Of a DNA stretch of 64,000 nucleotides, positions 1,148 through 39,200 are shown one piece after another. The DNA lies in NCBI RefSeq assembly GCF_003589595.1, contig NW_020653337.1, forward strand, positions 1,464,149 through 1,528,148, in the 5' to 3' direction. Every line of letters begins with the position of its first letter. The first letter of the stretch is position 1. Source of the stretch: Hyposmocoma kahamanoa. Taxonomy: Eukaryota; Arthropoda; Insecta; Lepidoptera; Cosmopterigidae. Position numbers and translations under genes: made by a program. Below the pieces are notes generated by a model. It was not told the origin of the DNA. It did not search any database and saw only the letters and a list, made by a program, of their open reading frames with translations.

Positions 1148-1347
1148 TGCCCGGTGCTTTTGGATTGCGACCTCCCGCTGCTGGGGCTCATTGGGCGCGC
1201 CGTCAACAGCATCTACTTCCTCGCTAACACGCGCTTTATCGAGAAGAACGACGTCATCGAAGATATGTACTTCGTTAATAAGGGTACCGTCGTAGTCAGG
1301 GACTCGAACGACGATAACCTCCAAATTATGAAGTTGCCTCGAGGAAG
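1148..1347 (+). CDS. Gene A exon: cNBD of repeat I, first half
   Basis: The acceptor TGTGCGCAG precedes a phase-0 frame beginning CPVLLDCDLPLL, the usual start of a cNBD after the C-linker. It continues through the beta-roll segment FIEKNDVIEDMYFVNKGTV and ends LPRG plus two bases before the donor GTATTT (phase 2). The gene B exon at 50949-51142 is the clear homolog, with CPVL and ERDDVIAEMYFVDYG at the same positions. The exon is 200 bases, against 194 in gene B. Confidence 0.93.
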
Positions 1348-4300
1348 GTATTTTTTTTAATTTTGTATACTTCGTACTTACAGCTAGTTTTACAGAATCG
1401 ACCTAATACAACTGTGAAGCATTTCTAAAAAAAAATATTATAATTAATTAGGTACAGTACATATCACAGAAACTGTTACCTTTACGAATTGGCTTTCAAA
1501 ACAAGTGAAATTGTTTTACTACTTCAGCTACACGATTTAGGGTGTGTATGGTGCGAATAAAGGACATCTTGTTGAGTAAACTAGACCTGCCAGCAGCCGT
1601 GGCCACCAGCTCCTGTACACATACTCATTCGGTATACATAAATTTACTGCAGTACTCCTGGCTTTGAAGATACCTATTCCACCTTGCAATGGACAATCGT
1701 CTTCTCACTTTGCTTATATTTCTGAACTTCAGCAGTGCCTTCAACGCTGTTGACTATGATGTATTGCTTGCTTCTCTTCGTTCTTTCAATGTTTCTCCTT
1801 CGGTTTTAGCTTGGTTCGATTCCTATCTTAGAGGCCGCTTGCAGTGTGTTCGCTCTGAGGAGGCTTCCTCTGATTAATGTGACTTAGCTGCGGGCGTCCT
1901 TCAGGGTGGTGTTCTTTCCCCTCTTATCTTCTCCATTTTTATTAACTCTGTCACTTCTGTGTTGTCCTCAAACTTTCACCTCTATGCTGACGATTTGCAG
2001 CTCTACCGTAGTTTTGAAGCTTTCGTTGTCGTTGCAGCCGTTGAAGCTGTTCACGCTGATTTACGAAGCATCGCTTATTGGGCTGAATCTTTTGGGTTGG
2101 TGGTAAATCCCAAAAAGTCGCAGGCCATGATTGTGGGAAGTGTACATATGCGTGACACATTGGATCTAGATTCTGAGCCACTTATATAATATAATTTCAC
2201 GCCTATTGCTTATACTTCTACTGCATCTAATCTTGGTCTACTTGTGGATTGTAATTTGGCTTGGACTCCGCGTATTAATGAAGTCAGTCGAAAAGTCCAT
2301 TTCTCCTTGCACTCGCTTAAGCGGTTCCAAAACTTTCTGCCTTTAAAATCCAAAATATGTTTAGCCCAATCTCTTCTTTTACCCTTCTTAGACTATGCTG
2401 ATTCTTGCTATTTAGATGCTACTGAAGAGCTGCTAAATAAACTTGAACGGTTACAAAACCTGTGTATAAGGTTCATCTTTGACGTTCGTAAATATGACCG
2501 AATCTCACAGTATCGCAGTCAACTCAAGTGGCTTCCCATTCGTCTCCACAGGAATTTGCATACTGTCTCTGTTTTCTATAATATTCTGCACAACCCTATG
2601 TCTCTCCCGGGTATCTGAAAGAGCGTTTCAGCTTTTTCAGGTTCCAGGATAATCCCCTGTCACTTTCTCGTTAGGTCCCAGTTATCTTTTCCATCCTTCA
2701 GTTCCGGTTTTTATTCTCACTCCTTCACTGTTCATGCGGTCAGACTTTAGAATGCACTTCCCATATTAATGGGAAGTCTATGATAGCAAATCCTTAGCAA
2801 TTTTAAAAATGGGAGTTATGGAGCACTGTTTATCAACTGTTCCATCCATTTTATAGGTATTATAGTACAAAATATGTATTTATCTAAGTATTTATATTGT
2901 TTTAATAATTTTATGTTTTTGATATTGTTTTTCTTTATTATAATTTTTGTTTTGTTGTGCACGTAAATCCGTTATTGTAATTATTGTCTCCTGTATTTTG
3001 GTCTGCAGGAAGAAATTTCTGTTAGAAATAAGCACTACCTTGTGTTTGTGTTTTCCTTGTTATTGAATGTGCTTTTGTTTTTTTTTCTGTACAATAAATA
3101 ATTAAATAAAATTAAGTAATACCACGCAACACTCGAATTAATCGTAGCTAGCGAGAGCCTATTATTGGGTAAACTATCACAAACTCGAATTTATTTTTTC
3201 CGAATTTCATTACTCCGAAAACGGTTCGACTTTTTTTCATTAGAGCGATGAGAGTTTTGATATAAATTTGCAACACAGAAATATCTTACAGCAGAAGTAT
3301 CATTTGTCCGAAAACCTATTATTAGAATAATTATTACACATACTAGTAATCATGTTTGTTATACTGTCTGTTTTCCATATAATTTAGATTTCTGAAAATT
3401 CGTTTCGACAAAATTATTATTCTTAGATAAAATTGTACCGCCATACAATTTTACCGTACAGCTCCAAAATTCTGGACTATACTTTGCTGGTGCACAGCAA
3501 GTCCACTTACGTAATTTTCGTCATACCATTGTGCTATGTTTTTGCGGCCATTGCGGCCGGCGGGCGAGTGCCAGAGCCGAATTTATCTGCATTACCTAGA
3601 CGGTACCACCCCCTCCTGTGGGTTTAGGTTAGGTTAGTATATGAAAACGCCGCACGAGCCGAACGAGCGAAGCGAGCGACTACAACTCGATCAAATTAAC
3701 TTGCATCTCGTTTACCATATTTTCTAAAGATGCGAGGTGCTTTAATTTGACGTATTTTGCGACACGTTCTAATACTTTTAATATTTCTTATTAATAATAT
3801 AACAAAAATGTATCATGAATATCGTTTTTTTCACAAAATAAAAATCTTCAATGGTGATATGGTTTATTAGGGAAATAAAAAACGGGAAAAGAATAACTTG
3901 TCAATATGTCAAAATAGTAAAACATTAAATGGTATTCATTAAAAATCTAAAGGTTTTCGGAGAAACAAAATTCTATAAATCTTTGTATTAATAATTATAA
4001 CAAACTAGTGAAGTAATTTCACAAAAAAATAATTGAATATCTATTCAATAAAAATTTCTATAAATCATGTTTCTAGCTTGTGATAGGTAACCCGATTATC
4101 AGTGTCAACTTGTTATATCCAACCAACCACACCCAGTGCAAAAAAGGTTGGACACATCAGGGATTGAAAGATTTATACCTTATAAATTCTAAGGTATCTT
4201 GCGGAGACGTAGGCGCTAACCATGATATTACTGTTCCGGAAACACTGACCAATATTTCTATTAATATCTACTTACCAATATCCAGCATTTTCGGAAACTT

Positions 4301-7300
4301 AGAACAGAAGAAGAGAGTGAGGTGCATGAACACATTCATGGCCGACAGCAATGTGCATTTGCTCAAGATTAACGCATTAGTATTCTACAAAATCATCTCA
4401 GAATTTCCTAAAAACAAAACTCTCATGGAACAATATCGTGTAAATAATGAGGTAAGTGACTAACCAACCTATACGACTGTTAGGTGACATTTGGGTCTGT
4501 ATGAGTAAGCATTAAGGGGTTAAAGTGAAGACGGGTAGGACATTTGGTTATGAGAAAAGAGGGACGATGGACCAAAGCAGTCACGGAATGTTGGCCAAAA
4601 GGAGCGAAATGGCCAATGGACACATCACCGACCCGACGGTAAATAAGTAACACCTGACTATTTTCCTAGAAGAACATAAATATGCTTACGCATTTGAATT
4701 CCCATTGAAATTGACGGAGACTATCGATTACCACTTTGCACGGTCCTGGTAAAACTCTCTTGTTTCACGTACATTCATCAATCTTTTCATACAAATCGTC
4801 TTATTCTTCTCAGTATGAGCTCCAACCATTTTAAGAATATTCTGAATTTCATCTAATAAGTTTATAGTGGACTTCCTTTTTTAATGTTGCTTTCATCGAT
4901 TGCTTTCCATAGGCTCTTACTCACTTTCGTTCTTCCTATATTATGTACGATGTACACTATAGAATAACTCAGTCTGTACCAACGAAGCAACCTATTAGGT
5001 AACTTATATTTTTTCGCTTTGTGTCCAAAAGGATGATTATTTTTACAAAACTTATCGGTCTGCTGAATATGGTCTAAATTGGACATAGTTATGCAAACCC
5101 ACAAAATGTCACTTTCGAGATAATTAGATATTTGTAAAAAGAGTGTGAAGAAATAAATAGGTAAGTTATTAGAGACAAACAACGTGAATTATGTGTAGCA
5201 TTGAGAATGATATAGGGAAACTATATTATATAGCAATAAATAGAAAACATTATGCATCTTTTTATTTAGTTAACGAGAACCATGTTCTAGTTTTCGTAAT
5301 AAAAAATCTAAAGATCTACAGCACTTCAGTGCATGTGACATGGATCCATTTAGCTTATTTTAAAAATACATTATAAGAAGTTAAGCAGCATGGTTCTTTT
5401 TAGCTATTAAAAAGTTACTTATTTAGGGTTGGCATCCTGAAGGACTTTTATTTTCTCCGTTTTGGCTTGATCTATTGCCAGGATCTTTTGTGAGCGGGTA
5501 AAGGACATGTCTGGTGTTCTACCTAAATACATAACTCAATTTCACTCGAGGTGTGGGTTGGTTCTTGTTTGCATAACTATGTCCAATTACAGATATCAAT
5601 TTCAAGTAGATCTTTTTGTTGACGAACTTTGCGAGTGCAGTAACATATTTTACTAGGTATACCTAGACTAAACACGGTAAGAAACACGTCGACACTATAT
5701 TTACTAGCAGCAGAGCCCCTTGTGAAAGAGTTCGTCCAGGGAATTACTGCCACCTTACCTATTTCAACCTCCTAGAAGGGTAAGGGTGATGGTAAAATTA
5801 CAATCACATGAGACTTGTCAACTTATGTCTCAAGGTGACGGGCGTAGTGGCAGTGCCTCTCAGATCCTTGCGGTTTAATGCTCTGAGTGGCACTGCCTCT
5901 GTAGTCGAACAATTACCGTGCCGGATTGCCACGCAGAGGTCCCAAGTTCGATTCCCGGGCCGGTAGAAATACTTGTATGGCCTACATTTATTTCTCCCCT
6001 GAGTTTGAGTGTAATTTGTAGTTGTCTGTGTGTCCATGGCACACGCGACACAGGGTTTCCTTAGTGCGGGGCTATGTTTAAGGTGTGTAATAGTGCAACT
6101 GCTAAGGCCAGGCTTGTAGCTTACAATCAGGTGCACTACTTGTTCGTCCCGTTACTTGATATTATAAAAAAAGTCTGAAGCTAAGATAGCTGCGGTAGAG
6201 TACTCGTGTGTGTGAAATGTGCATTTTAATTCTTATCCAGAATTACATCATCGGAGGACAAATGGACACTAGAGCGATGCCGATTTGGAAAGAACGTACG
6301 CCCAGCTCAACTAACCTCTATGAGACGCACGAAGGCACGTTCAAATACTGCGATATGCAACGCTCCAATATCATGCATATATACTTAATCATTGTCAGCC
6401 TTTTGTCCATCTACACCGAAACTTACAATATCACCTTTCAAGACAACAGATTGCCACTCGTCGTAATCCTCTACCTGCTTGACTTCTTATTCTTTTTAAA
6501 GATGGTTATAAATTATGCTATGGCCAACGGCGTATTTGACACTAAAGTCAAATTGAACCTACTTAACGCGACAAAACGGTGAGTTTACTAGTTTTCCTTT
6601 ATATTTTGAATTTTATTAGTCAGTATTAACATAATTGATCCAATCCAAAAAAGATAATTTCTAGGATCTACCAAAACAAATACGGTGACAGCCCAGTGGG
6701 AAAAACAGTTGGTTCCCAATTAAGAGGTCGATGGTTCGACTCCTGCGTCATTTGTGTATGTTTAGTAGTGATATTTTCGCCAACAGTAATGGGAAATTAT
6801 TATGTTGACATCCACCCAAGAAGGTGTCTTATAAAACTCGTAAAATTCAATCGTCAGTGGACGCTTGTGCACTATGGTTAACGTGACCATACGTCCCGCT
6901 TTGAGCAGGACAGTCCTGCTTTTAAGCTTCTTATCTTGCTGTCCAGAACATACTTAGAAATGGAAATAGGACAAAATATATATAGCCAGCGCAGCAGACT
7001 ATACAAGTTATTTTTTTACATTTTTGATCATTAAACATTTTTAGAAGTTTTTAAATTCTTTTTTTCATCATTAAACACAGTAATAATATTTAACTTATGT
7101 AATAATTATTAATACAAATATCGAACACTAAGAAAAAATTCCTTCGATCCGGCCGGATTCGAACCGACGTCTCCTAGACCTAGCAAATCGTACCAGACAC
7201 TATGCCAACTAACCCACGGAATGAACCAGTGGACCTCACGAATTTTCCTACGTGCTTGTTGTTGGTTCTTTGTATTTGTCTGGCACTGTTTGCTAGGAGA

Positions 7301-10300
7301 CGTTGGTACGAAACCGGCCGGTTCGAAGGAATATTTTCTATAAAATATCATAAACATGTTTTTATTTTTAAAACAATATAATAAATTCACAGGCGTCCCA
7401 CTCTGAAGGAAAAAAATAATGGTCACTTTAACTATGGCCTAAACTATTTTCTTAAAGTATATCCGTGATTAGAAAAATGGGTTGAACGATGGTAATGATG
7501 ACTAAAAACGACACATTGTTACGTAAAATAAAATGTTCAATATGAAAGCAATGGTGGATTCTATAGTTTTTTCCATAACTACGCCTGACGATGTCTTTAT
7601 CACGGCTACCTATCAATAGTCCGAAATGACATTTTCCAGAAATAACCAATTGGTCGAAATTTCATAGCCTCGAAAGTAATTTTGAGAGAAAAATGTTTTT
7701 TATTTTAAAATTTTTTTTTTCTCTCTGGGAAACGCGTTACGCGTACCGCTCGGCTCGGGGGGAGCTGCAAGCGGTTATGTGTGACTCCCGGGCTCTAGCC
7801 CGGTATACACACTAAAACCCAGCGGTTAACCCCCACCGCCATAGCGAGGCACCCTGGATCCGCTTACGCATACTACAGGAACGCCTCGGCGGATGGTCCG
7901 CGTGAGCGGCCCCGGCCTTCTGAGAGTGCCCTGGGTCAACACAAAGGCACCCTCAAACTTGTGAGCATAGACTTGGAGATAGGGTCCCCCGACTCCTGTC
8001 CCCACGGCTCACTACAGCGAGGGAAGAAGGTGGGCGTACTGCCTCCTTCGTCTCCCCAGCCGCCGTCTTCGGAGCGGGTCGTCCTCTCTGAGCCGTTCCG
8101 AGGCCTCCTTGTGCGAAAGTACGCTTTCACAGAAGGAGGCCATTGCATTCCAACACCTCTGACTGTCGAGCATCGCGCTCACGATGGTCGACAGCGAGAG
8201 ATCTCCGCCCACTACCGCGGTCAGGGAGTGCCGCTGGGGGCCCCATGCCGCACATTCTGCCACGGTATGACGCACTGTATCGACGGAAGCGCCACACTCG
8301 TGACAGACAGGGGTCGTCTCCCGACCTGCAACCCGGTGCAGGTATTCGCCGAAACATCCATGTCCGGTGAGAACCTGCACCAGTCTGTAGGACAGAGACC
8401 CATATCGCCGGTCGACGCAGCGGATTAGGTGGGAGCGAACTGCCTCCACCGTCACTAAGCCCGCGACTGGGGCCTCTAGATCCTCCGTCCATTTTCGGAT
8501 TAAGGCAACGCAGCCCGCTGCCCTGATCCTCCCCAGGTCTTCGGCGGCCTTTCCCCCCTGGCCTGCATGGCCGCTCGGTATCGGTACACTTCCGCGAGCA
8601 CCTCCGCCTGGAGTTTCCAGGGAGGATCGCCCGCCAGAAGAGTGGCCGCCGTCCACGACACCGTGCGATAACCCCGGATCGCTCTCACCGCTATGACCCT
8701 CTGCGGCCTCCGCAAGAAGGGTTTAAGTCGAGCGGTTTCGTTATAATTCGGCTTTCGGTGTAATGAAAATTCGAACAAACGTCATTTCGGAGAGAAAAAA
8801 TTTCGACTTTGTTGTGGGTTACGCTTTATTACTAATCAATGACCGTAGATACTGCAAAGGAGTGTTCAAGTACGACGTCATTTCCTGTGTGCCCTTTGAG
8901 TTGTTCTGTTTTCTCGCACAAAATAAGTGGATGGCATTCTCTTGCTTAAGACTTAACCGGCTATTCCGAGCGGTGAGTATGGCGTCATTACCAGTCCCTG
9001 TTCAACCGTTGTAACTAGGATTAAGTAAATATCTCAGGGCAAGATATTTTAGATGTACTACTCCATATTTATGCACTGCAAAGGTGTAGAATCATTGGCA
9101 ATATGACTGGTTTCGTACACCAAAGTCAAAGAATCATTGATTCCATAGGTAAAATAAATTTACACTTGAAAACGTCACTTTTACGCTACTGCACATTCAC
9201 TACGCCGATTTCCCTGAGAAGAACGACCCACAAATTCTAGGGATGCTCTTTTCAAATAAACTTAAATGCTATGGAATACACTTTGAATCATATTTGTCTA
9301 TCATATATATAACTTTATCTAACACGTAGTCTTCAATTTTGTAATATGACTTTTCAATTAAAATATTTTTAATATAGTGTTCAAACTTAGGAAATGATAA
9401 TCTTAATATATGCTCCGGAATCTTATTGTAAAAACGTATACAGTTCCCCATAAAAGAATCGTTTACCTTGGTTAAACGAAATCGTGATACCATGAGTTTG
9501 GAGTTAGCTTTAAAGTTAATATTATGTATACTAAAACGAACATTAATTGTCGTATGTCTGAGTCATGATTCTTTTATATGTGAATTAAATTCATTGATAG
9601 AACGAGATTGACAAGATATGTTAAAAGCTAAATGGAAAATACGTTGCCCTGATACCTCTTTCGACTCTCTGAATTTCGACAAGTCCGACTATATGTTACT
9701 TCGACATGACTTTACTCAGGCACTATCCTACTCCGACAAAATGGTAGACCGTCAGTACATAGATAGTACGCTACTTCAAATTCAAATTCAAAATAATCTT
9801 TATTTCATAGGTAAGCATTATTACACTTGAAATCGTCACAATGGTTAAACTCTACCGCTCATTCGTAAGGCAGATTCCCCTGAGAAGAATGAGCAAGAAA
9901 CTCTAGGGGTTGCTCTTTGTAAATAACATTTACAATATTTTTTTTTTAATTTGAAACATCAGAGATCGAGACTACCTCCATGAGCTAAATGGGTTACTAC
10001 CACGGATTTTTGTCATCCAAGTACGCAGAAGTTGTATAATAATCTTTAGTATAAAGTTTTTGTTTCACTATAGTTTTAAACCTCGTGAAAGGCAAATTTT
10101 GTATATCAACCGGAATCTCGTTATAGAAGCGTATACATTGCCCCTTAAATGATTTTTTGACTTTGTGAAGACGACTATCAAGAAAAGCTAGTTTATTTCT
10201 ATTCCTCGTATTAATAAATTAAATCTAATAAATTATCCATAGCCTGTGTGTGCTCCTTAATCTCCTGTTGCGCAGTTTCATATTTCTGTGTTATTAATTT

Positions 10301-13300
10301 TAATGAATTTGTTACACTAAGTAATTCTGCCTGGAGGCGCTGTGTGTCACATTCATAGCTAAGCCTATTTTTCTCAAGACTTCGATAATAATGTTACATC
10401 GACATGATTTTTTTTACACGGGCACTTTAGGATGACACTACATTAAAACACTCAAGTTTACTTCGGGATTTCTTGCTTAAATACGAGAATCTAAGCAAAT
10501 TCACCATATTTTATAAACCTCAGCTTTAGTTAGGCGATATATCAAAAAAATTGTGTAGAAATTTGTTAACAAAAAAGAAACTAAAATGTAGAAGTAATAA
10601 ATCATTGAATATTTATTTATTGCTTTTCATATTGCACATGCACACCCAATCAGGGTTCTAAAATTATAAAATGAGATCAATGTGAGCGAGTGACTTTTTT
10701 TTTCAGTTGGAAATTCATTTACAAAACAGTATGATTTTAAGACGAGATATTGTTTTGATTTATTTTTAAATGAGTTAATGTTATGTTCTTTTTTAAATAA
10801 TTAGTAGTGAGAATTTATTACAGTCCATACAATGGCTATTATTATATTTCTAATTTAGATTCGTACAGGGTCCGTAATGTTATGTACTACACTATTATGG
10901 TCTGCAATAAAGTATTGACTAGATTCAGGGAGGATCAGGTGACGGGTAGTTTAATTAAATTCAAAATATAGTAAATGTTGATTGCTTACCTACATGAGTA
11001 TATAACCAGAAATAGAGACAAAATAAGGGCCATCCATCCCTGGCCACTTATCAGGCAAATGGGCCTTATATCAGTTTTAAATATCAACTCTCGTTTACGC
11101 TGAAATCACAAGGTAGAAAGCTGAAATAGTACAGTGCCAACAACTGACCTGTGTGTACGTCTCAGTATATTCCAAAAATATTCTGTATTTATTGGAATAA
11201 AGATAATATCTCTAACTATGAGGGGCTGTTCCATTCGGTGGTGTGGGAAAAACAGCAAAACATCTAATTACAAAACAAACGGAATCACATTTCATCGGTA
11301 ATTAAATATTAATATGTAATTATTCAATTTTCGTCCATTATAGCAAAGTTCAAGTTAAATTGGTCAATTTCAAGCGAAACAATTGACGACACTCGTTAAT
11401 TGTTTCGAATTCGGGCTGGCCAATCGGAGCGCAGTTATCACTGTAATGATTTGGCAGAATAGTTTCAAACAAAATTAAATGACATTTTGTCTCTATTTCT
11501 AGTTATATACTCGATGCTTACGTACGACCATGCTACTTCCATGATATAAAGGGATTGGATAATAAGGGAACACTTAAGGTGGTCTTCTACTGGCGAGGCA
11601 AGACGAAACGAGTAGAGAGGAGAATTGAAATTTCGTCGACCTCGTTCCACCAAAAATTGCCATTAACAGCTGTTCAGTTCATCTAGCGATAGCTAAAGTA
11701 ACATGTTCTGTAAATTATTATTATTAAATATGTTAACAGAAGAAGAATCAGATGAAACCATCTTTTTTCTGATTGATACTTATAGCCATCACGAAAAATC
11801 GTATTTTCGCTGTAGAATGTAACACTGTATGTAGACAGCAATACGGTTCAATATTACATCAACAAATATTTCAATTCTCACTTCGCCCATCCTCGTCAAT
11901 CCAGACCTATTCCACCAAAGATGCGCGAGGAGACAACAAACACGAGGAGTGAACAAACTTGTTTTGCCTTGTCTCGTCTCGCCACGCCGTTGAAAAATCA
12001 CCTTTATGCAGGTGACAATCAGCGAATGCATGAGAAAGCATCGCACCAAACCAAACATCAACCTGGTGCTAAGCATGCTCGTGTCGATGATCATTTGGTT
12101 CATGTTGTACATACACTGCATGACTTGCGCCTGGTGCTTCATCGGAAAACTTGAAGACGAGAGGGCGCCCAACTCATCGTGGCTACATTTGAGTTAGTGT
12201 TCCTCTTCTATCATTATCTTTAAGTTTGAATCGTAATAGATGTCCAAAACGTAAACACAGGGGATAATCTAACAAAAAACACATTTTAAATAGTAGTTTC
12301 CTATTTTTGACGATAATTAACGTTATGAATTATTTACAAACTGTAATTTAATAAAACTGAGAACAATTCATAGACTAAAAGACGATGTAAGGTTGTAAAT
12401 AATTATATAAGGCTGTTAACACAATCGGGATAAAAAACATTTTTTTCCGCCATTTTGGCGTGTCACAGATGTCATCCATGTTACAAAGGATTCAAGTGAT
12501 TTCAGTTCCTAGGGAGAACAATTCATTACAATAAACAATTAGATTTTTTCATAAATATTTTTAATTTATTAATTTTAATTATAATTTATCAGAGAGGTAC
12601 CAAAACCTATATAACTATATAATGGAGAAATCAGTTTGAATAATCTTCTTTACATAATCTGTCGGCTCGATAAAATTATCGGAGCTAAAGTGTACGTCGC
12701 CCACGTCGCTTTAACACAGTAAAGAAAAAAACAGTGTCCATGAAGTATTCCATTTTTTCTGTTTAGGTTTGTCTATCAATAATAATTGAACTTCAAAGGC
12801 ATGCTATGTCAAAAGTAAAATAAATGGTTTAGTAAAGACCTATCGTATCGTAGTACCCTAAGTGTAATAAGGCCACATCTGTAAAATATCAACTTTTCTG
12901 TAAAGAGGTTTGAAGGTTCTACGAACGAAATTCGTTGATAACTTACGATGTCCATAACAGTTGCAGTGCCACTCAGAGCTTTAAATCTCAAAGATCTGAG
13001 GGGCACTGCGCCCGTCACCCTGAGACACAAGTTGACAAGTCCCATGTGCCTGTAATTTCACCAGCACCCTTCAAAACCGGACCACATGCTGACATTACTG
13101 CTTGGCGGCAGAAATTGGTAAGGCGGTAGTACTAACCTGGACTAACTCTTTCACAAGGAGCTTTTCTAATGCTACTAAACTTTCGAATGGCCGTTGATGT
13201 AAATCCAAAAAATACTTAGCGAATATTAAATCAGTTTTAACATATCTTTTATTATACACAAAACACCTGTGACCAGCTGTGGGTGTTAACGGACTAAGAT

Positions 13301-16300
13301 GTTGATGGTGATGATAATAAACATCAGTACTGAGTACTAAAGAAACCAACCTCAAAAGTCATTCATCCCCTAGTTTGCCACCCTTGGAGATAGAATATTT
13401 TTTTCTTCAAATTTAAATGGGACAACTACTGAGGTTCCTTTCCACCAAAAAATAATCATCAATATCGGTTCACAAATCCGGCCGGAGTTATCGTGTAACA
13501 TACATACAAAAAGACAGTCGAATTGAGAACCTCCTCCTTTTTTTAAAGTCGGTTAATAAAGAAAAGACAGACTATGAAGAAGCTACAGAGACCTATCACG
13601 TGACCATGCTTTTGGCCGGTTTATATGTAGTTGTTACAGTCAGCAGCAACCAGCCTATGAAAACAAAGTTTTAAGTTCCGAAAAATAAGATTTAGTGTTT
13701 ATTTTAGAACGTAGCCCCGCACTAGGAAAACCCAGTGTCACGGGTGCCATGGACACACACATAGACAACCACAAATGTTGAGTGTGTGCGTTATTTACGG
13801 GAGAAAATATATGAAAGTCTATTTCGAATTTGTTTATTTTAATTCAAATTCCAAATTCCATTTACACTTGCCACTAACATATATGTACGTAGTAATTAAA
13901 AACACAAAATTATATCTATGGTCATAGATGTATGGCGAGGATTCTGACCTCATTTATGTTTGCACAACACTGATTTTCAGCATGAACCTCTCTGACAGGA
14001 ACTGCGGTCTCACGTTTGTGTAACATGTACTTTACGAAACAAAATAAGCACAGACAATTAATTAAGCTATTTAGGAGGAGCGCGAAAGTAGAAAAGAAAA
14101 CAAAATAATAATTATAATTTACACAATAAAAACCAATAGCGATTGTCAATTTTCAAACAAGATAACATTTCTTTAAATGGTAAAAAGCGGAATAAAAAAG
14201 AATGAAAAAAACGTTTGAAAGGAAACAAAAAAAACACAAGCACAACAGTTATCCCAAACAGATACTTACAAAATGTGTCTAAAATTTACAGCATATTTTA
14301 ATGACCCGGGAGTGATTCAGCATACTTCTTTTGGGCAAAATATTTTCCTCAGTTTCATGCAAGGGTGGTGGTAAATCACTCCAGATCGTGACTGCTGCAT
14401 GCTTGAAACCCTCTCTAAAGCCAGCAAACATTTAAGTCCAAACTTAAGTTTAATTTAGTTATTTTAACCATTTGTGTTGCAGATACGACTACGGCACCTT
14501 GCCAATGGCCACTCTAAAGCCAGCAAACTTTTAAGTCCAAACTTAAGTTTAATTTAGTTATATTAACAATTTGTGTTGCAGATACGACTACGGCACCTTG
14601 CCAGTGGCCATATTTGTGTGCGTTTTACTTTACACTGACCACGTTCACGATTGACGGCGTGGGTGACATCTTACCGAAAGTACAATCAGAGGTATCAATT
14701 TCAATATCGTGTGTTTTTTACTGAGACAGTATGGGGAAATCCGAACCCAAAGAAGATACGAGGAAACTGTCTTAGGAAAAAATTAAGTATTTTATCTACA
14801 CACATATCATAAACTCTGTATATTGTGTTCAAAAGCAAAAATACTCAAACATCAATATCATATAAAATCTTAGAGGATGGAACATAAAATACTATATTAA
14901 GTATGGAAAACAACTTTGACATTGTCATGATTTTTGGTCAAGTTGGAGTTGTCCATTTATTTTTTGAAAACACCTCACCGTACAAGGTTTTTGTTTAAAT
15001 CATTGGTTAAATTTTTATTGAATGTTAGAATGTTTCACCATCACGATATAATTTTTTTTTGTGAAATAAGTCCACTAGTTTGTTATAATTATTAATACGA
15101 ACACTTAGGAAAAAATCCTTTGATCCCATTGACTTACAAATAAATGGACGACGGGTCTAATACAAAAACCACGAAAAAAATGTCCCAAGTCAACCTATTC
15201 GAAATTTAAATTGTAATGTCATCGCAGTATCGCGCTGTCAGTAGAACAAATGAAGACTAAAGCGGAGTTTGGCGCTCTGTATACGATTTTAGCGCCCTAC
15301 AAGTGCGGACACTTTTTAGCGCGGACCCGACGTCCATATATTTATTTATTTATTAAACTTTATTGACCACAATACAAAGGGTACAAAAGGCGGACTTAAT
15401 GCTAAAAGCATTCTCTACCAGTCAACCTCTGAGAAAAACGAAATTCACGAACGCGGTAAATAAACAGAATATTACGGTTATATTAAAATAAATGAAACAA
15501 ATTCATAATTATATATATAACAAACTAACCTAATACCTTACTTAATAATATAATACATACACTTACATACATACAAATATACTATACATATACAAAATAC
15601 TTACAATAACAGAATATGATGATGATTATTGCTGTGACAAACAATTTAGAAGATGCTCATGGACATTATTTTTAAAAGAAAATATATTAGGAGACCGTCT
15701 GATGGCGTCCGGTAGAGCGTTCCAGAGCCGTATCGAGTGGAGAGTAAAAGAATCTGACATGAAGCCAGAATGAAAGAGAGGTACAGAGAGTGATAGTGAA
15801 TTCATGGAACGAAGTGGGAGGTCATGAGAGTCACAGAGATACTGAAATTTACATTTCAAGTATTCTGGATAGTGGGGATTGAAAAGAACGGAGTACAACG
15901 TACAGAGAATTCTTTTCTGTCTGCGTTGACGAATAGGGAGCCATTTAAGTTGAGACCTAAAAGAAGAAACATGATCAAATTTCCGAAGGCAGAAAATGAA
16001 ACGAATAGCATTATTGAGCAGGCGGTCCAACTTGTCTAATAGATTTTCGTTGAGATCAGGATAACAGACATCAGCATAATCAATGAGTGGGAATATAAGG
16101 GAGGTGACGAGCAGGGTCATATAATTCATATCGAGAGGAGCATATAATTGTAAGTCAATGTTTGATCCGGCCGGATTCGACCCGACGTCTGCTATCAAAC
16201 CGCTCCTAACTAAACCACGGAAAGAACCACCTTACGAATTTTTCTGTGCTTGTTATCGGATCTTTGTGTTTGGTTTTCAATGACTTAGCCGTAGCGCCAT

Positions 16301-19300
16301 CTATGAAAAATCTATGAAAGTATTTCGTCACCCGGTTAGGTACCTTTACAGCTGCCAACCCTGCTAAAAATGCGCTATTAACTGTAATTATTTTTTTATT
16401 GAATTTCAGAATGTTTCTACCATGATATCCAATTATTTTTTGTGAAATTCGAATCCGGCCGGCTCGAAGGACTTTTTTCTAAGTGGTCGATCTTTGTATT
16501 ATTATAAAATTCGTTGGTGTTAAAAAAAACATTAAACAAAGCTGATTTCTAGTAATGAAGAAATACGTGCTTGAGACACTTTTGATGTGTGTATATAACA
16601 TACGCGTTTTTTTTTGTACAGCTAATTAATTTTAGTCATATAGCCTGAGAGCGCTGGTTCGAACCCAGCCGGATCAAATCGGTACTTGGTACTTGGTGTA
16701 ACGGGCTGGTGTCCGGATCAAATGATTATGTCTAAGTGTTCAATTCGATCTTTGTTATTAATAATTACAATAATACTGAAACTAAATAAGATATTATAAT
16801 TGTCTTATATTGGACAAACAAAGCGAAGTATTTGTACCCGCGTCAAAGAACATATAGCTGATGTCAAACACCGTCGCGTAAACAAGTCTGCAGTCTGCGA
16901 GCATGTCATGGATAAACCTACACATTCAATGAAGTTTGACAAACCCCAGGTCCTTGCAAAAGAAGTCCGTTATCTGCCCAGGATGCTGCGAGAGGCCATT
17001 GAAATTAAAAAACATCCTAATTTCAACAGGGAAGATGGTTTCTCCGTACCACCAGTTTGGGATCCAGTATTTCCTCTAATGAAAAATCCCAAACAGACAT
17101 AATACTGCAGTACTAATTAATATGTTTTAGTTTATTCTAATTTCTATTAATAATTAATAATAAATTAAACTTAATAAAAATTCATTCAATAAAATGATTT
17201 GTAAAACTTAATGTAGCGTAAATTGGAATGTTTTCTTTGTAAAATTAAAAATAAGGTATTTAATTAATAACTATTGTAACTATAGTGAAAAAATAGGGTG
17301 GTTTGCATTAATATTAGACATAACTGGTTGAAGACTGTACCACCTCAGTCAACCGTGACCATGGGACCTGTAAAGGGCCCGAAACGTCGGTTTGTTTGAA
17401 AAAACAAATATACGCGATTTAAATCCGGAAAAATAGTTTCATTTTCTATGTGTAACAATCGCGAAAACCTAAGAACTCAATAAAAAAAAAAATTTCGAAA
17501 TCGGTCCCCAGTTGGTGGAGAAATCGATGAGAACACTGAATTATGCATATAAAATTTGAGAATTTTCCTCGATTTCACTGAGATCTCCTCATTTTTCGGA
17601 TCGGATTCTCACTTGGTGACTATGGGACCACCTCGAGAGTGCATACTTTCAAACAAAAAATAACTTTCAAAATCTGTCCACAATTGACGGAGAAATATGA
17701 CAACATACATACAGCCGAACGTATAACCTCTTTTTTTTTAAGCCGGTTCATAAAAACGGCAGATTTACTTACTAGCAACATCCAGTTCATTAATTGAATT
17801 CGGTTTCTATCAGTTATCTTTATCCATTATATTATAAAATATATATGTATTAACGTTATTGCTGCAGGTCATCTTCACGTGCTTCCTGCAAATAGTTTCC
17901 GTTTTGCTGTACATGATTTATGTGGGCGGATTTTCCTACATTATACGGTACAAGTCTTTCAGATTCTTTGAGTTCTGCGCCAAATACGCGGAGCTCTTGG
18001 TAAGTGCCATAAATGACCACATTTAAATGTTCTTGCATGTCTGGAACATTAAATTATTGTTTTCACTAAACTAGTTATACGTTAATAAGTATATTATTCA
18101 TCAGTCGCGCTCGCAATTTTGCACTCCACGACGCACCAGTTTCACGTGGTCTAGCCTTTACACGTACGCTCTTTCCGTTGTAACAAAAAAGGACACGAGC
18201 AATCGTGCGCGAAAGAACTATTAAAAAATTTATTACTATTATATTAAAAAATTCCAACAGGTAATCACGCGCGATAGAGTGAATGTGTAAAGGGGGGGGC
18301 TAATGTTTGATTACAAAAAGAAGGCCCTCAGGCTAATTATAAATAAACAAGCCTTTTCGATATCTAGCGCTGCTTTCTTTTGTTGATAAATTTGACACAT
18401 TATAACAAATACCAATCAATACGCCATTTAATTGAACCTACATAGCCTCAGAGAAAAATGGCTTCCCACGGCCCATAGTTTCACATGTAGCACCAAGCGA
18501 GTTCACACCAACGTGCCGTGAGAAGAGTGCAAACAGACATGGGCGACGCCGGCGCAGACTTGCCTGTAGAGGCGTTTTTGTTCTTCCGTGGTAGAGGCCC
18601 GTCGGATGCGCAGTGTGTCGATAACTGCAAGGGCGCGCGGCGCGGCCCTTGGGTAACCACCACCACTATATAGATCAACATTTGATTTATAGTACGAAAT
18701 TCTTTACGTGTTAACAATTCTGCAATCTGCGAGCATGTCATGGATAAACCTGCACATTCAATGAAGTTTGACAAACCCCAGGTCCTTGCAAAAGAAGTCT
18801 GTTATCTACCCAGGATGCTGCGAGAGGCCATTGAAATTAAAAAACAGCCTAATTTCAACAGGGAAGATAGTTTCTCAGTACTACCAGTTTGGGATCCAGT
18901 ATTTCCTCTAATGAAAAATCCCAAACAGACATAATACTGCAGTACTAATTAATATGTTTTAGTTTATTCTAATTTCTATTATTAATTAATAATAAATTGA
19001 ACATAATAAAAATTCATTCAATAAAATAATTTGTAAAACTTAATGTAGCGTAAATTGGAACGTTTTCTTTGTAAAATTAAAAATAAGGTATTTAATTAAT
19101 AACTATTGTAACTATAGTGAAAAAATAGGGTCAATCAATATTAGACATAACTGGTTGAAGACTGTACCACCTCAGTTAACCGTGACCATGGGACCTGTAC
19201 AGGGCCCCAAACGTCGGTTTGTTTGAAAAAACAAATATACCTACGCGATTTAAATCCGAAAAAATAGTTTCATTTCCTATTAAGTAACTTTTTAAATTTG

Positions 19301-22300
19301 TGCGTTTTTAGTCACTTTTATAATGAATACTAGGTAATTTGTCCTAAATTTTCACCACTTTCATGTGTGATATTTATTTTGTCATAGTGTTTTTGAGTAT
19401 CTTCGTGTTTATATTAAATAATGCGTAAGTTTTACTATCCATCTCGAGGACTGCAATCATACTGTGAGCTAATCGTTTTAGGCTTATATGAAAAGTACTC
19501 GCGTGTCGAAGAACCTAATGAAAATGATAAACAAGTATTCCCTGCACCTGTGGCGGGAATCGCGCGGCGTGCAGATGCCATACTTTTTGGAAACGGCGCC
19601 GCAACACCTGCAGACGAAGGTCATGAGCGCCGCTTATATGACGCATCTTACTCAGGTGCGTATATGAATACTGCTTTAAATTCCAGATCTTCCTGTAGAA
19701 AAATGTTTGTCAGTTCCAGATATCGCTTCAAACGTAATTTAACAGAATTTGATTTATAGTTTACGTAATGTATTTTACAAAGTCTTAGATAACATTGTTA
19801 GGTGTTGTTTTCTAATTATTACAGCGTTATCTACGAATCACATTAACTAGTCTCGATTACGGTTTCTTTGTTTACAAATGTCAGTTTCAACGATCAAATT
19901 GCTGAGTTGGCGTAAGAGGTGGAGCTGGTGTCGTTTGAATCTATTCAGTTTAATCAGTCATCTGACTCAGCTCAGATCATGTAACGCATGATAATCGTTG
20001 GCTGAGTTACCATATAATAATAAGTAGTAACGTTGATGGTGAATGCTTTACCATGTCAACGCGAACAAGATGGGCTATTTTGTGTGAGTTACTCGGAAAG
20101 TGAACTGTCGAGCGCGGCCATTCCCTGTGAATTTACAGCGTGACATAAAAATCTATTTTAACCTGATCCATCTTTTGTATTTTTGATTAATTAAGCTGTG
20201 AAAAGTGGATAAACGAAATAAATGCAATAAAGTGACATTGTTTCACCACTGTTCGTATTGATAACGAAGAGTGAATAGGCGAATTATCAATGTACGAACG
20301 TTTCTTATTTCATTCCTGACTAAATATAATTAGCGTGTTTCGCTCAATGCCTCCCCGACAACTATATTCCGACATTATGATGGCTAGATACGTGATAATA
20401 ACATAAATATGCTCTGTTGCAGCATCCTACGTTCAGAACTTGTGAGCCTGCATTCAATCGCCAACTTGTGAGGCATTTGCGAATGTACTTTTATGATGAC
20501 GGTACGTCTTTACAAATTTTTGGGGTAAATAGATTGCTAGTTTCAACCAACTAGTTTTTTTACTTTTGCGAACTAAAAAAAAAACCATATTTAATTGACA
20601 TGCAAAATACATGATACAAGCAATTTGAAAATATTAAATAATTCGTTCATAAATACAAAGAAAATAATAGGGAAAAAAATAATAATAGAAAAAAGTTAAA
20701 ACAAATAAGCAAAAAAAAGCATGTCAAAAAGGTCCATGACTCAGTATTTGAGTTGTTCATAGAGCAGGTAGCCGATGGGGCCAAAGAGTACTCGAATAAC
20801 AACCGCATACCGGAAGACGCAGCGTCAGACTACCCACAAGGTCGACCGAACCTGCTGAAGGTTGTGGGAATCCATGCAAGCTACGAAAGACCGGTGCAGC
20901 GATTTTTGGTTGAGGTCTATGTCGTGAAATGATGATGAAGACCGTATAACCTGGACGTGGGAAAAATTTGGAAGTTATAATTATTTATACAAAGATCGAA
21001 CACTCAGAAAAAACACTCAGAAAAAATTCCTTCGATCCGGTCGGATTCGAACCGACGTCTTCTTGCATACCGTGCCAGACGCTATACCAACTAAGCCACG
21101 GAACGAACCAACGGACCTCACGAAATTTTTGTGTGCTTGCGTCGTGTCTTTGTACTTGGTCTTTCAACGACTTTTTAGTCGTAGCGCCATCTATGAGAAA
21201 TCTATGACAGATTTATCACCCAGTTAATACCTTTACAGCTACCAGTCCTGGCGAGAGATGTCGCTATTCACTGTATTAATTAAATTTTTATTGAATTGAT
21301 ATTCAATTATTTTTTGTGAAATTACTCCACTAGTTTGTTATAATTATTTATACAAAGATCGAACACTCAGAAAAAACACTCAGAAAAAATTCCTTCGATC
21401 CGGTCGGATTCGAACCGACGTCTTTTTGGATACCGTGCCAGACGCTATACCAACTAAGCCACGGAACGATGAACGTCTTATGAAGTCCCTAACTCCCGTT
21501 AGACCAGCCACTGTCTATGCCTCTAATTAAACCCTATTTTCAGACGAGACCCGTACTCAGTAATGAAAATACAACCCATTCCCAATAAATAGTAAATACT
21601 GAGTACACGGATGAATACACTACATAGCCTATGTTTTGTTTTGTTATTTTTGGAATTACATCTATTTGCCAAGTTTTATTGATATCGATTACCGGAAAGT
21701 GCGCGAAACCGGATTCATCCCCCAGTTTGACCCAAAAAAAGTACTCTCTTTCCAACAAAAAAAAGAATCAACAAAAACGGTTCAAAAAACCAAATACAAA
21801 GACACAACAACAAACACATAGAAAAATTCTCGCTGGTTCGTTCGGTGGCTTAGTTGGTATAGCGTCTGGCACGGTATGCTAGAAGACGTCGCCGTCGGTT
21901 CGAATCCGGCCGGATCGAAGGAATTTTTTCTTAGTGTTCGTTCTTTATATTAATAATTATAACAAACTAGTGGAGTAATTTCACGTAAAAAATAATTGAA
22001 TATCAATTTAATAAAAATTTCAAATCAGGTTTCCTCGCTTTTTTTTCATTTATTGCTATTGCTCTTCTGAATAGGTGGTCTGGTTAGTGTTTCTCAAATT
22101 TACATGATTCTAAAATATACAACTGAATTAGGAACTAACACTACAGATCGCTCGTGTTTTAAATTTGCTATTTTAAAGGAAATAAATTCTTCCTGAACCA
22201 TGATTCATTATTAATAACGTGTTTACAGCTATGTACGTGGTAAAACAGAACGAGATCACCGATTCAATGTATATGATCCATAGAGGCACCGTGGAAGAGG

Positions 22301-25108: not shown

Positions 25109-25113
25109 AAGAA

Positions 25114-25153
25114 AATAAATATAATAATAATCAACGGTAATTAATATAATAAA
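25114..25153 (+). promoter_or_regulatory. Candidate polyadenylation signals of gene A
   Basis: AATAAA occurs at 25114-25119, only six bases after the stop, and again at 25148-25153. The second is the more reasonable signal for a very short 3' UTR. A Penelope 3' fragment begins about 75 bases later, so any longer 3' UTR would include transposon sequence. Confidence 0.45.
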
Positions 25154-25227
25154 CGACAGAAAACATAAAAAAATGAACTATTAAATTACATAGTAATAAA
25201 AAACATGCCTGACGCGATTTAATAAAT

Positions 25228-25345
25228 TAAAACGGCCCGAAACGTCGGTTTGTTTGAAAAAACAAATATACGCGATTTAAATCCGGAAAAATAGTTTCAT
25301 TTCCTATGTGTAACAATCGCGAAAACCTAAGAACTCGATAAATTA
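25228..25345 (+). mobile_element. Penelope-like 3' fragment
   Basis: GGCCCGAAACGTCGGTTTGT, then AAATATACGCGATTTAAATC and GTGTAACAATCGCGAAAACC, match the 3' ends of the copies at 16797 and 18722. Only the last ~120 bases of the element are present, 120 bases downstream of the gene A stop. Confidence 0.8.
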
Positions 25346-27080: not shown

Positions 27081-27081
27081 T

Positions 27082-27185
27082 ATCAACTTCATGCAGTCGA
27101 GGTCTCGGATAACGACTTCACGCATTAACTGCATGCAGTCGAAGTCGACTTCATGCAGCCGAGACCTCGATTGCATGAAGTTGAT
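27082..27185. repeat. Long hairpin (27-nt arms)
   Basis: The arms 27082-27108 and 27159-27185 are reverse complements with one mismatch (ATCAACTTCATGCAGTCGAG against CTCGATTGCATGAAGTTGAT). The 50-base loop contains further copies of the same words (GACTTCA, CATGCAGTCGA). No coding signal. Confidence 0.85.
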
Positions 27186-27340
27186 TATGACTTCACGAAT
27201 TAACTCCAAACAAGCAGCACAATCTGTTAGCAGCCTTACGGCTGATACCATGGATGTCTATGTCTGATGTCAATTTTTTTAGAACTGTTCCAAAGATTTT
27301 GTGTGAAATCAGTATAGCATCATATTTTAGCGAAAAAATC

Positions 27341-27567
27341 ATTGACTTACAAATAAATGGACGACGGGTCTAACACAAAAACCACGAAAAAAATGTCCCA
27401 AGTCAACCTATTCGAAATTTAAATTGTTATGTCATCGCAGTATCGCGCTGTCCGTAGAACAAATGAAGACTAAAGCGGAGTGTCGCGCTCTGTATACGAT
27501 TTTAGCGCCTTACAAGTGCGGACACTTTTTAGCGCGGACCCGACGTCCATATAATTGTAAGTCAATG
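27341..27567 (+). mobile_element. TIR element family B, copy b
   Basis: 227 bases from CATTGACTTACAAATAAATGG to ATTGTAAGTCAATG, with the perfect 8-bp target duplication GAAAAAAT at 27333-27340 and 27568-27575. It is the shorter form, lacking about 60 internal bases relative to copies d-f, like copy a. No ORF. Confidence 0.93.
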
Positions 27568-27575
27568 GAAAAAAT

Positions 27576-27830: not shown

Positions 27831-27852
27831 TACATTTGCAATCTTGAATGTA

Positions 27853-27889
27853 GATGACGATGACGATGACGACGACGATGACGATGACC
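27853..27889 (+). repeat. GATGAC microsatellite
   Basis: About six units of GATGAC/GACGAC from TAGATGACGATGACGATGAC. On either strand it gives a short acidic or Val/Ile repeat in chance ORFs (27667-27963 minus, 27796-28059 plus), which are not genes. Confidence 0.85.
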
Positions 27890-35423: not shown

Positions 35424-36293
35424 TTACTTTTTAGAATTTTCCCCATCGTCGGAATGTTTTTCTTCTTTCGTATCCTCCTCTTCGAGCTGTTTCTCTTCAT
35501 CACCACCACTAGCTATGGGCTGCTTATCCGTAGCTTTTGTTTCAACGTCGTCGATATGTTTATCTATCTGCAATTGTATATGCTCTGGAGCGTTATCATG
35601 ATCATCTGGTCGAGATAAGCCTATCGTGGTGTAAGTCTCCTGGTAGCTTACCGCTACCTCCTTAAACTTATCTAAACTAGACTCGAACTCGCCTATAAAT
35701 TCTGTTATTTTATCTTTCTCCCTTTCGATGGTCAAATTAGTTTCACTGTCAAATTTTTGTTCACTTTCTGGTTGTCTTTTCTTAGATTGAGGAGACGCGG
35801 TCACATCTTCTGAAATACCCCGTCTGCTGTTAATTGGAAGGAGATTCGACATTTGGTCAACATTAAATAAACTCGATGTAGGTCCCATATTTGACAATGT
35901 TTTTGCAGGCAATACTTCTGTGAGCGATTGTGAATTCTGACTAAGGGGTTCTGTTAATGTTTGTGAAACTGGCGCCATGACCGAAGAGTTTGATTTAAAC
36001 TTTTTGGGCAGTTTTTTAAAGGCATGAAATCGCATTTTTCTGTCAGAGCCTATTTTTAGTGTCGGTTCGTGCAAATGTCCAGGCTGTTTAGTTATTTGCA
36101 CCCGTTTCCTATCCTTATCTGGAAATTTATCATCGTCGTCGAAAGAAGTCTTGCTGTACTCTTCGAAAATATACGCTTTGCTTTTCGGGAAATGTGTCAG
36201 TAGATATTCCCAATCGTGCAAACACAAAGTAAGAACTTTTGCATTGCCTTTTGTCCGGTATGAAAAATTGTAAGGAGTATTACGGTACAGGCC
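35424..36293 (-). CDS. Gene B last exon: end of cNBD and short charged tail
   Basis: The minus acceptor GTTTCAG precedes GLYRNTPYNFSYRTKGNAKV, LTLCLHDWEYLLTHFPKSK (end of the cNBD) and FDDDDKFPDKDRKR. A tail of about 230 residues follows, rich in Ser, Lys, Glu and Asp, ending DTKEEKHSDDGENSKK and a stop. The cNBD part aligns closely with gene A (GLERNTPFTFSYR...DDWKYLVKHF). The tail lacks the SHNRRK repeats of gene A, so the paralogs differ most here. Confidence 0.93.
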   Translation of the reverse strand, partial: GLYRNTPYNFSYRTKGNAKVLTLCLHDWEYLLTHFPKSKAYIFEEYSKTSFDDDDKFPDKDRKRVQITKQPGHLHEPTLKIGSDRKMRFHAFKKLPKKFKSNSSVMAPVSQTLTEPLSQNSQSLTEVLPAKTLSNMGPTSSLFNVDQMSNLLPINSRRGISEDVTASPQSKKRQPESEQKFDSETNLTIEREKDKITEFIGEFESSLDKFKEVAVSYQETYTTIGLSRPDDHDNAPEHIQLQIDKHIDDVETKATDKQPIASGGDEEKQLEEEDTKEEKHSDDGENSKK

Positions 36294-39200
36294 CTGAAAC
36301 TGAACTCCGAATCGTTATAAAATTGTGTGAATTAATTAATTATGAGGTGCGCAGAATGACGGAAACTGTACCGAGTGGTACATCTCGGCGACTTTAGTAC
36401 ATACAATAAAAATAGTAGTCTGCTTTATCTATTTTTATTGTGTTGTGTGTAAAGACCCAACTTTGTGTCACACGGATGTGTGATTAGTGCACAGTTATAG
36501 GGCAAGGCAGCAGCGGTATTAGGACCGACAAGTCTCAAACGCTTGAGTGCCGTTCAGTGCCAGATACAGATGCTGGTATTAGAAATATTATGAGTTTTAT
36601 TTATACTATTTCTATACCTCCAATGAACACTACGCCAACTGAATGTTTCTAACTGTTCTGTTTTTATTTTGATTCTTTATTTTTTTCACAAAAATCGTTT
36701 TTTTTTTTTGTTTTTCTTTTCGAATATTCCTTTTTCACAAACCTTTACGGGTAGCATAATATTAGTAAATAAATATGGCTGTTTACAAAAATAACAAAGT
36801 ACGACCAAAAAATAAAGTGTTCATTGGAGGCATTGACTTACAATTATATGGACGTCGGGTCCGCGCTAAAAAGTGTCCGAACTTATAGGGCGTTAAAATC
36901 ATATACAGAGCGTCATTCATGCTTTAGTCTTCGTTTGGTCGACTGACAGCGAAGCAAGCAAAATTAGACAGTACAGCGATGACATTACAATTTAAATTCA
37001 ACGTTTTATAAAAATAAAAATAAAATAAAATAAAAATATTTTATTTCGGACCACAGTAATCCATATAAATTAGTAGGTTAGTAACATAACAACTTATAAC
37101 TATGTTAGTTATTAGGGTTATTACAATTACATAACTAAAAATTAATAAAATTAAAAATAAAATGAGACGGCTCACCGATTTACTGCGTGCGAATCGGTGA
37201 GCCGCTTGGACAGCAATTTGGTGAACCTCTGGAAAACTGCTGCATCCATCCTGTTTGCAATTAGCTTTAGGATCTTGTTATTGCTTCCCCTCACCCTTTG
37301 TACCAGCGCTGCAGACATTTTGCGCATGATGGCATAAAAATCCTTAACAGCAGCATCCGCAAACATGCCAGATGCGCTGCAGAAACGTGGAAGCCTCAAC
37401 AAGACCCTAAAGGTATTATTATATTGGATTCGCAAGGCACTGTACGATCTCTGTGTGAAATTAGACCACAGGGCACACGTGTAGAAACTTTGGCAGTATG
37501 CTCTGAAGAGCGTAAGTTTCACTCCAATTTTAGCTTTTAGTTTTAGCTTTTTCATATTCCTTTACATGTCACTACGTTTAAATAGGTTAAATTGGGACAT
37601 TTTTTTCGTGGTTTTTGTATTAGACCCGTCGTCCATTTATTTGTAAGTCAATGATTGGAGGTATCGATTTATATACTATAGAAGTAAAAAAAACTAAATT
37701 AAATAGCACTCCTATTAATAATTGTTACAATGACATAGTGATACTAGCTGGTGAAGTGTTTATGCATATACTTCGGGTAGCCTACTGATTACCCCTTAAA
37801 GTGAAATAGGGGTATTTCACTTTGAGGGGTAATTGATAAAAAACTGTAACGGTAATTTCTTACAAAAGGCATAAATATGAATGAAAATATAACATACAGA
37901 GTTATTCTCGCATTCATAATTACAGTTTGGATTGTCTTTAAGGTTAACCCAAGTATTGCCCTTAAGGCGGCTTCCCACGGCCCGTGGACCGTTTCGCGAA
38001 GTGCGAAGCCACGTTCGGATCCGCCACAGGTCCGTAACTTCGAAGACGCGGCCTAAGCTCTCGACACACACCCGAATACGCGTCGCCACGCGTGTAGACC
38101 CTAGGACTCATTCAGAAAGCACGTGCGGGCGCGGCGGCGGCGGGCGCAGGCGCGCCGGTCTTGGCGTCTTCCCTTTTACAATGCCGAAGTGGCTACGAGC
38201 GGGTAGGAGTCACAAACAAACGCTAGACGAACAAGCACTGCGCTGCGCGGGTGGCCACTGTGAACGCAAGGAGAGTCTACATACATTGGATTTACATAAT
38301 AACGCACACACTCAACATAGCCCCGCACTAGGGAAACCCTGTGTCGCGGGTGCCATGGACACACACATAGACAACCACAAATTACACACAAACTCACGAG
38401 ATAAATAAATGTAGTCCATACAAATATTTCTCCCGGCCCGGGGATCGAACCTGGGACCTCTGCGTGGCAGTCCAGCATGGTAACCGTTCGGCCACGGAGG
38501 CAGTTACATGGACCCACGCCCGCACCCGCGCCCGCCGCCAGTCTTATTAAGAGGCCTTAGGCTGCCGACACTTGCCCGTGTCGCGAGATCGCCCGTTTAA
38601 ATCGGCGTGTTTGAAAACACGGGCCATGGGAATGCACCGTTAGAAAATTATCCCTTAAATACCTCTAATCTCGAATTATATAATTTATTTAAATATACGG
38701 AAAGTTTTCTTTACCGTTCCAAAGCAATCACTGGCTCGAAAAACGTTCACCGTCTCCTCAAGGTCCTCGGCAATTTTTTCGACGAGTCCTTCGTGGATTA
38801 CATACATTGCGTCTGTTATCTCGCTCTCCTTCACGACATGTACGCCTGTAGACGTATTTATTAATAAAAGATCGTTAAATATGAAGTAATCGTAGAAACT
38901 CCTCACGATGACGCATAATTAAAATAGTTAAAGGTAAAGAACTAGGTACCTGAGTTATACGTATATAATTTGAAATGTCGAACCAACTGTCGAAGGAAAG
39001 CAGGCTCACAGTTGCGGAACACGGGATGCTGCAGACAATGAAGCAGAAGTGTATAGAGTGACAGTTTACGTAACAGCTATGTCGCGCTGCACACGGGATA
39101 ATTTCAACAACATTTTCCTCATGATTTTCCATCAATTTGTCATTGAATATCGTCAGAAAAATCTTGTTGAAACCATCCCGTGTGGAACCGACTCAAGCGG

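Follow-up and report, generated by a model that had tools for sequence, protein, structure and literature searches.

The two genes described here lie in a 64,000-nucleotide stretch of the moth Hyposmocoma kahamanoa (RefSeq assembly GCF_003589595.1, contig NW_020653337.1, positions 1,464,149 to 1,528,148 of the forward strand), referred to below as the window. Gene A, on the plus strand, and gene B, on the minus strand, are probably inverted and diverged duplicates of one gene, a single transcript of which would encode at least two repeats of the cyclic nucleotide-binding domain (CNBD) channel type in one polypeptide. The genes are arranged tail-to-tail, with 10,315 bases from stop to stop, and are taken to be an inverted duplicate because they face each other. 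Two repeats is a minimum, because the start of gene A lies beyond the window and that of gene B is not established.

Gene B displays the arrangement in full. Its 19 exons, from 62383 to 35424 on the minus strand, join into a frame of 1248 codons up to the stop. This frame holds two repeats, each with transmembrane segments S1 to S6, a C-linker and a cyclic nucleotide-binding domain (cNBD), followed by a charged tail, and it stays open across the junction between repeats I and II; at the level of the gene model, two six-transmembrane (6TM)-CNBD repeats share one open frame. All 18 introns end in AG and keep the frame in phase; 16 of the donors are GT and two, those of introns 1 and 2, are GC. 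Exon 1 is entered in phase 0 through an acceptor and contains a single in-frame ATG, at 62326 (residue 20), which may be the start of the gene; a stop in the same frame lies a few codons before the exon begins. The exon models of both genes were built from a reading of the DNA outside 24001-31999 together with a six-frame peptide comparison of the A region with the B region. For gene B they are as follows, with any support beyond the exon model in brackets.

62226..62383, minus strand: exon 1, N-terminal to S1 of repeat I, with a GC donor
61963..62145, minus strand: repeat I S1 and start of S2, with a GC donor (GORK alignment)
61723..61880, minus strand: repeat I S2-S3 (GORK alignment)
60249..60393, minus strand: repeat I S4 (GORK alignment)
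58617..58777, minus strand: repeat I S5 and turret
57225..57371, minus strand: repeat I pore, with filter STGYN, and start of S6 (SthK alignment)
53388..53529, minus strand: repeat I end of S6 and C-linker (structure match)
51279..51414, minus strand: repeat I C-linker (structure match)
50949..51142, minus strand: repeat I cNBD exon 1 (Pfam)
49540..49705, minus strand: repeat I cNBD exon 2, ending in phase 0 at the donor GAG/GTTTGT
46377..46726, minus strand: repeat II linker, S1 and S2, entered in phase 0
44741..44870, minus strand: repeat II S3-S4, with LRLNRVFRI (KCNH1 match)
42346..42526, minus strand: repeat II S5 (KCNH1 match)
41847..41956, minus strand: repeat II pore, with filter HDGIG (KCNH1 match)
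40287..40418, minus strand: repeat II S6 (KCNH1 match)
39467..39640, minus strand: repeat II C-linker (KCNH1 match)
38950..39028, minus strand: repeat II cNBD exon 1
38715..38845, minus strand: repeat II cNBD exon 2 (Pfam)
35424..36293, minus strand: repeat II end of cNBD, charged tail and stop

The GC donors (GCAAGT) are needed by two successive short introns, of 80 bases (62226/62145) and 82 bases (61963/61880) on the minus strand. A run of 100 N at 61586-61685, in intron 3, is an assembly gap near coding exons.

Of gene A, 11 exons are visible on the plus strand, between 1148 and 25108. All 10 introns are of the GT-AG kind and in phase, and the only stop is at the end. The exons follow, again with bracketed support in addition to the exon model; the pore exon was placed by alignment to gene B.

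1148..1347, plus strand: repeat I cNBD exon 1, reading CPVLLDC...PRG (Pfam cNMP_binding, 7.3e-08 for the two-exon cNBD)
4286..4451, plus strand: repeat I cNBD exon 2, ending in phase 0 at the donor GAG/GTAAGT
6241..6578, plus strand: repeat II linker, S1 and S2, entered in phase 0 (Pfam)
8849..8972, plus strand: repeat II S3-S4
12012..12192, plus strand: repeat II S4-S5 linker and S5
14582..14691, plus strand: repeat II pore, with filter IDGVG
17868..17999, plus strand: repeat II S6
19482..19655, plus strand: repeat II C-linker
20423..20501, plus strand: repeat II cNBD exon 1
22229..22359, plus strand: repeat II cNBD exon 2
22478..25108, plus strand: repeat II end of cNBD, long charged tail and stop

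The junction between the repeats had been singled out by an earlier, sequence-only reading of this DNA, which claimed that exon 4286-4451 of gene A has no stop, ends in GTAAGT and runs in phase 0 into the exon at 6241, and that gene B does the same between 49540-49705 and 46377-46726, with KKE followed by NFIVG. Both descriptions agree with the exon models. The gene A exon ends in phase 0 at GAG/GTAAGT, a donor with eight of the nine consensus letters, and the next exon opens AAT TAC ATC in phase 0, preceded by TTATCCAG. The gene B exon ends in phase 0 at GAG/GTTTGT and reads KKE/NFIVG into an exon that opens AAT TTT ATC in phase 0, preceded by TTTTATAG. The donor falls at the identical codon of a 166-base exon in both genes. 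The same reading held that a shared junction of this kind is hard to obtain by chance. That now depends on the whole gene models, because in-phase joining has one chance in three of arising by itself and the paralogs A and B are not independent draws.

The whole models are closely parallel. From cNBD I onward, intron phases are identical at all 10 shared introns and exon lengths are equal in 7 of the 11 shared exons, while the proteins have diverged to 50.3% identity over 441 amino acids in repeat II and 46.7% over 122 amino acids in cNBD I. In repeat II the proportion of nonsynonymous differences (pN) is 0.30 and that of synonymous differences (pS) 0.83 over 406 codons; in cNBD I, pN is 0.31 and pS 0.66 over 120 codons. 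As pN in repeat II is far below pS, both genes are constrained at the protein level and evolve under purifying selection. There is no frameshift or internal stop in the 30 modelled exons. A tblastn search of the 64-kb window with residues 1-600 of A and 1-1020 of B (E<=1) gave no channel-like match beyond these exons.

Membership of the CNBD-channel superfamily, with its 6TM domain, C-linker and cNBD, is supported by domain and structure matches, repeat I of gene A being judged on its cNBD alone. Pfam cNMP_binding is above the cut-off in repeat I (7e-07) and repeat II (5e-07) of B and in cNBD I of A (7.3e-08), and just under it in repeat II of A (4.6e-06), where Ion_trans is found at 3.4e-15. 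Against solved structures, repeat I of B matches SthK (2.5e-20, pore to cNBD) and GORK (1.9e-13, S1 to cNBD). When the membrane part is used by itself, the GORK match covers residues 5-320 of 324, with values of 1.8e-08 for the whole sequence and 4.1e-07 for the stretch. Repeat II of B matches KCNH1 (1.7e-28), and a profile of repeat II from both genes matches KCNH1 (3.6e-33) and CNGA1 (8.4e-33) almost equally. A scan of NCBIfam returned bacterial families only, all far below cut-off, and among 161 pattern matches in viral contigs none encoded a relative.

The two repeats are clearly different from each other. In gene B, 92 of 451 aligned positions are identical (~20%), and one intron coincides in column and phase, at the boundary between C-linker and cNBD; among the remaining eight introns of repeat I and seven of repeat II there is no exact coincidence. 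The filter of repeat I in gene B is STGYN, opposite TIGYG in the SthK alignment. That of repeat II is HDGIG in B, opposite SVGFG in the EAG1 alignment, with IDGVG at the same positions in A, and the S5-P-S6 region of repeat II, including the residues that flank the filter, is to a large extent identical between A and B. The S4 segment of repeat II carries arginines and keeps the motif LRLNR.FR, whereas that of repeat I, read by eye, is poor in charge.

In cNBDs, a Glu and an Arg of the phosphate cassette contact the nucleotide. At the site of the SthK cassette Glu there is Asn in repeat I of both B and A, Thr in repeat II of B and Ile in repeat II of A. At the Arg site, in the same order, are Ser, Cys, Tyr and Phe, the gene A residues being taken from the A/B alignment. 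The loss of Glu in repeat I is free of any ambiguity of shift. The cNBDs of both repeats look degenerate, and the cassette Glu and Arg of a CNG cNBD are not found at the aligned positions; nor are the single repeat and CIGYG filter of an HCN channel. Different filters and degenerate-looking cNBD pockets set these repeats apart from generic HCN or CNG units.

KCNH (EAG/ERG) and CNGA channels give the best solved-structure matches of repeat II, and EAG1 has the C-linker motif W-x-x-SRG in common with it, but they are single-repeat tetramers with canonical filters. Hallmarks of KCNH are an N-terminal PAS domain and an intrinsic-ligand strand. The S4 motif LRLNR.FR of repeat II resembles that of CNGA. 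The bacterial SthK and the plant GORK are the best matches of repeat I, but they are single-repeat channels with ordinary filters (TIGYG in SthK), and the phosphate cassette of SthK is intact.

A tandem CNBD channel that acts as a dimer appears to be the best reading. Two polypeptides would dimerise, with repeats I and II alternating round one pore to give a two-fold pseudotetramer, so that two copies of the two-repeat protein would complete a four-domain pore. The repeats would be non-equivalent, repeat II contributing an arginine-bearing S4 and a filter Asp, and repeat I a charge-poor S4 and STGYN. Because the cNBDs seemingly lack the cassette Glu and Arg, voltage, or a ligand that is internal or of another kind, would be a more likely gating stimulus than cAMP or cGMP. 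Our guess for the pore is a cation pathway that is not K-selective. Chained channel subunits are the plan on which Nav, Cav and TPC channels are built. The pair may be part of a family of animal CNBD channels with two repeats each, in which the repeats are non-equivalent, the pore is two-fold, one of the two filters has an Asp, and the cNBDs have ceased to serve cyclic nucleotides; as a whole this is a plausible proposal that falls a little short of being the favoured outcome. If true, tandem CNBD channels would have had an independent origin here, the family would be a rare animal intermediate between single-repeat tetramers and the four-repeat CNGK, and it would let the sharing of gating and selectivity among non-equivalent repeats of a single pore be tested in a natural case.

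Chained CNBD repeats have been described elsewhere. Two-repeat tandem CNBD channels occur in dinoflagellates and oomycetes, and four-repeat CNGK channels in metazoans and choanoflagellates (Pozdnyakov et al. 2020, PMC7576140). The protist channels resemble A and B in having two 6TM-CNBD repeats per polypeptide, theirs being <=30% identical, and the dinoflagellate cNBDs are partly degenerate; however, they are reported from protists only, the likeness to A and B is architectural, and their consensus filter is TVGY/FG as against STGYN and HDGIG/IDGVG here (PMC7576140). A and B, unlike these, carry a charged tail after the repeats. CNGK, or tetraKCNG, of marine invertebrates, fish and choanoflagellates is, like A and B, an animal CNBD channel of chained 6TM-CNBD repeats (PMC4749565, PMC8835908). 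It has four repeats, termed nearly identical in a 2018 review (PMC6259924), and a K-selective pore with GYG or GFG (Fechner et al. 2015, PMC4749565), whereas here two repeats are in view, they are ~20% identical, and the filters are STGYN, HDGIG (B) and IDGVG (A). The CNGK sequence list in the portion of Fechner et al. drawn on is without an arthropod, and the portions used of PMC8835908 and PMC6660944 mention no insect multi-repeat channel. In the open-access literature, no two-repeat CNBD channel of an insect or other arthropod was found in titles and the beginnings of abstracts among the matches listed, most subscription papers being outside this search. As far as searched, the two-repeat layout is known in protists and its occurrence in an insect is undescribed.

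A number of observations count against the tandem reading. The sequence-only reading had predicted two complete repeats in each gene. This is visible in B, but A shows only the cNBD of repeat I, its membrane part lying beyond the window edge, and exons 1-8 of repeat I in B have no confirming paralog in the window. Pfam Ion_trans is not found in either repeat of B at E<=10, and repeat II of B has only a weak Ion_trans_2 match (0.017), under cut-off. A hydropathy scan, with peaks matched to segments by the analyst, marks five of six segments in repeat II of each gene, S4 being missed, but only three of six in repeat I of B; because these are S1, S5 and S6, segments S2-S4 of that repeat rest on the GORK alignment. 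In both genes repeat I has an Arg one position before the aligned cassette Arg site, so that a one-residue shift would restore it and its loss in repeat I is alignment-dependent. The junction donor of B is mediocre, with six of nine consensus letters, although the other B introns range from five to eight. Assembly as a dimer, and its gating, are what we infer. The tandem architecture is nonetheless retained as the best reading, since the frame is continuous in both paralogs.

The rival that bears most directly on the junction is that two ordinary single-repeat genes stand in tandem and were duplicated as a block, with an in-phase junction that is accidental or an occasional read-through splice. 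If the donor is left unused, translation meets a stop after 3 codons in A and 28 in B, and a short alternative terminus through intron retention is conceivable. The junction introns hold four (A) and five (B) AATAAA/ATTAAA motifs, although AT-rich DNA would be expected to contain them. Both genes conserve a Met at S1 of repeat II, which makes a separate repeat II product starting there conceivable. The claim that the repeat II exon is entered with no start Met stands for B, where the acceptor TAG is an in-frame stop directly 5' of the exon and no Met precedes S1; in A the unspliced frame has an ATG at 6217, shortly before the acceptor, a start that is unconserved because of that stop in B. A separate start exon feeding repeat II, which the sequence-only reading had contemplated, was sought as an open stretch from ATG to donor of <=600 bases in phase 0 with at least seven donor consensus letters. 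The B junction intron has no such candidate, and the three in A have no counterpart in B. The linker from acceptor to the conserved S1 Met measures 44 codons (A) or 48 (B) and is open in both genes, whereas ~9% of random intron windows of these sizes are open. Its conservation is weak (11 identities in 39 aligned codons, pN 0.47 against pS 0.88) and can be called suggestive only, since among 300 random pairs of open intron stretches, likewise aligned, 13 reached its pN, 27 its identity count and 30 its gap between pS and pN. A Fisher test on the linker (p 0.0004) was rejected as stand-alone evidence: the linkers were aligned by protein similarity, which biases the test, and the control with random introns gives a much weaker result. 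Both paralogs place the donor at the same codon and share the phase of the acceptor, and two separate genes are an unlikely explanation.

Two further alternatives are compatible with the tandem reading. The protein may be longer, with just its final two repeats inside the window; it could be, for instance, a diverged CNGK-type channel of four repeats, the first of which would lie beyond 64000 for B and before position 1 for A. Exon 1 of B enters in phase 0 with an acceptor, as at the I/II junction, and neither 5' end is fixed within the window; animals do have the four-repeat CNGK, in which repeats I/III and II/IV are related (PMC7576140). The possible start at the ATG of B exon 1, with its upstream stop, lowered our estimate slightly. 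The 1.6 kb preceding exon 1 of B and the 1.1 kb preceding the first exon of A gave no further channel-like match by tblastn, yet introns here reach 3.7 kb. CNGK repeats are nearly identical (PMC6259924) and its pore is GYG or GFG (PMC4749565), which is not what A and B have. A longer protein of this kind is quite improbable. The tandem protein could, on the other hand, be non-conducting, a pseudo-channel with a regulatory or scaffold role. The odd filters in both repeats and the apparent loss of cassette residues would suit this; the largely identical S5-P-S6 and filter flanks of repeat II, and the purifying selection on that repeat, would not, and it is unlikely that the protein is of this sort. 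That the locus is an assembly artefact or a pair of pseudogenes is scarcely credible. The N run in intron 3 of B and the transposon-like copies within introns might invite the idea, but the N run is away from the junction, the 30 modelled exons are intact, and pN is well under pS.

The tail of B, at 228 amino acids, is far shorter than that of A, at 829. The tail exon of A contains internal direct repeats at 23313-24597, the longest of 111 bases, 85% identical and 609 bases apart, a spacing that preserves the frame. A tandem duplication of 99 bases (14413-14610, 95% matches) copies the acceptor and first bases of the gene A pore exon; the duplicated acceptor is possibly a decoy splice site. 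The intron of gene A that separates the two cNBD I exons contains a fragment of an RVT_1 reverse transcriptase at 1878-2186 (7.7e-12). Six tRNA-like Rfam matches lie in introns, at 21032-21105, 21395-21468, 21839-21918, 43033-43106, 46829-46904 and 47238-47315. ARAGORN recovers four of the six, three of them typed as Thr, and as their flanks recur in the window they give the impression of tRNA-derived short interspersed elements.

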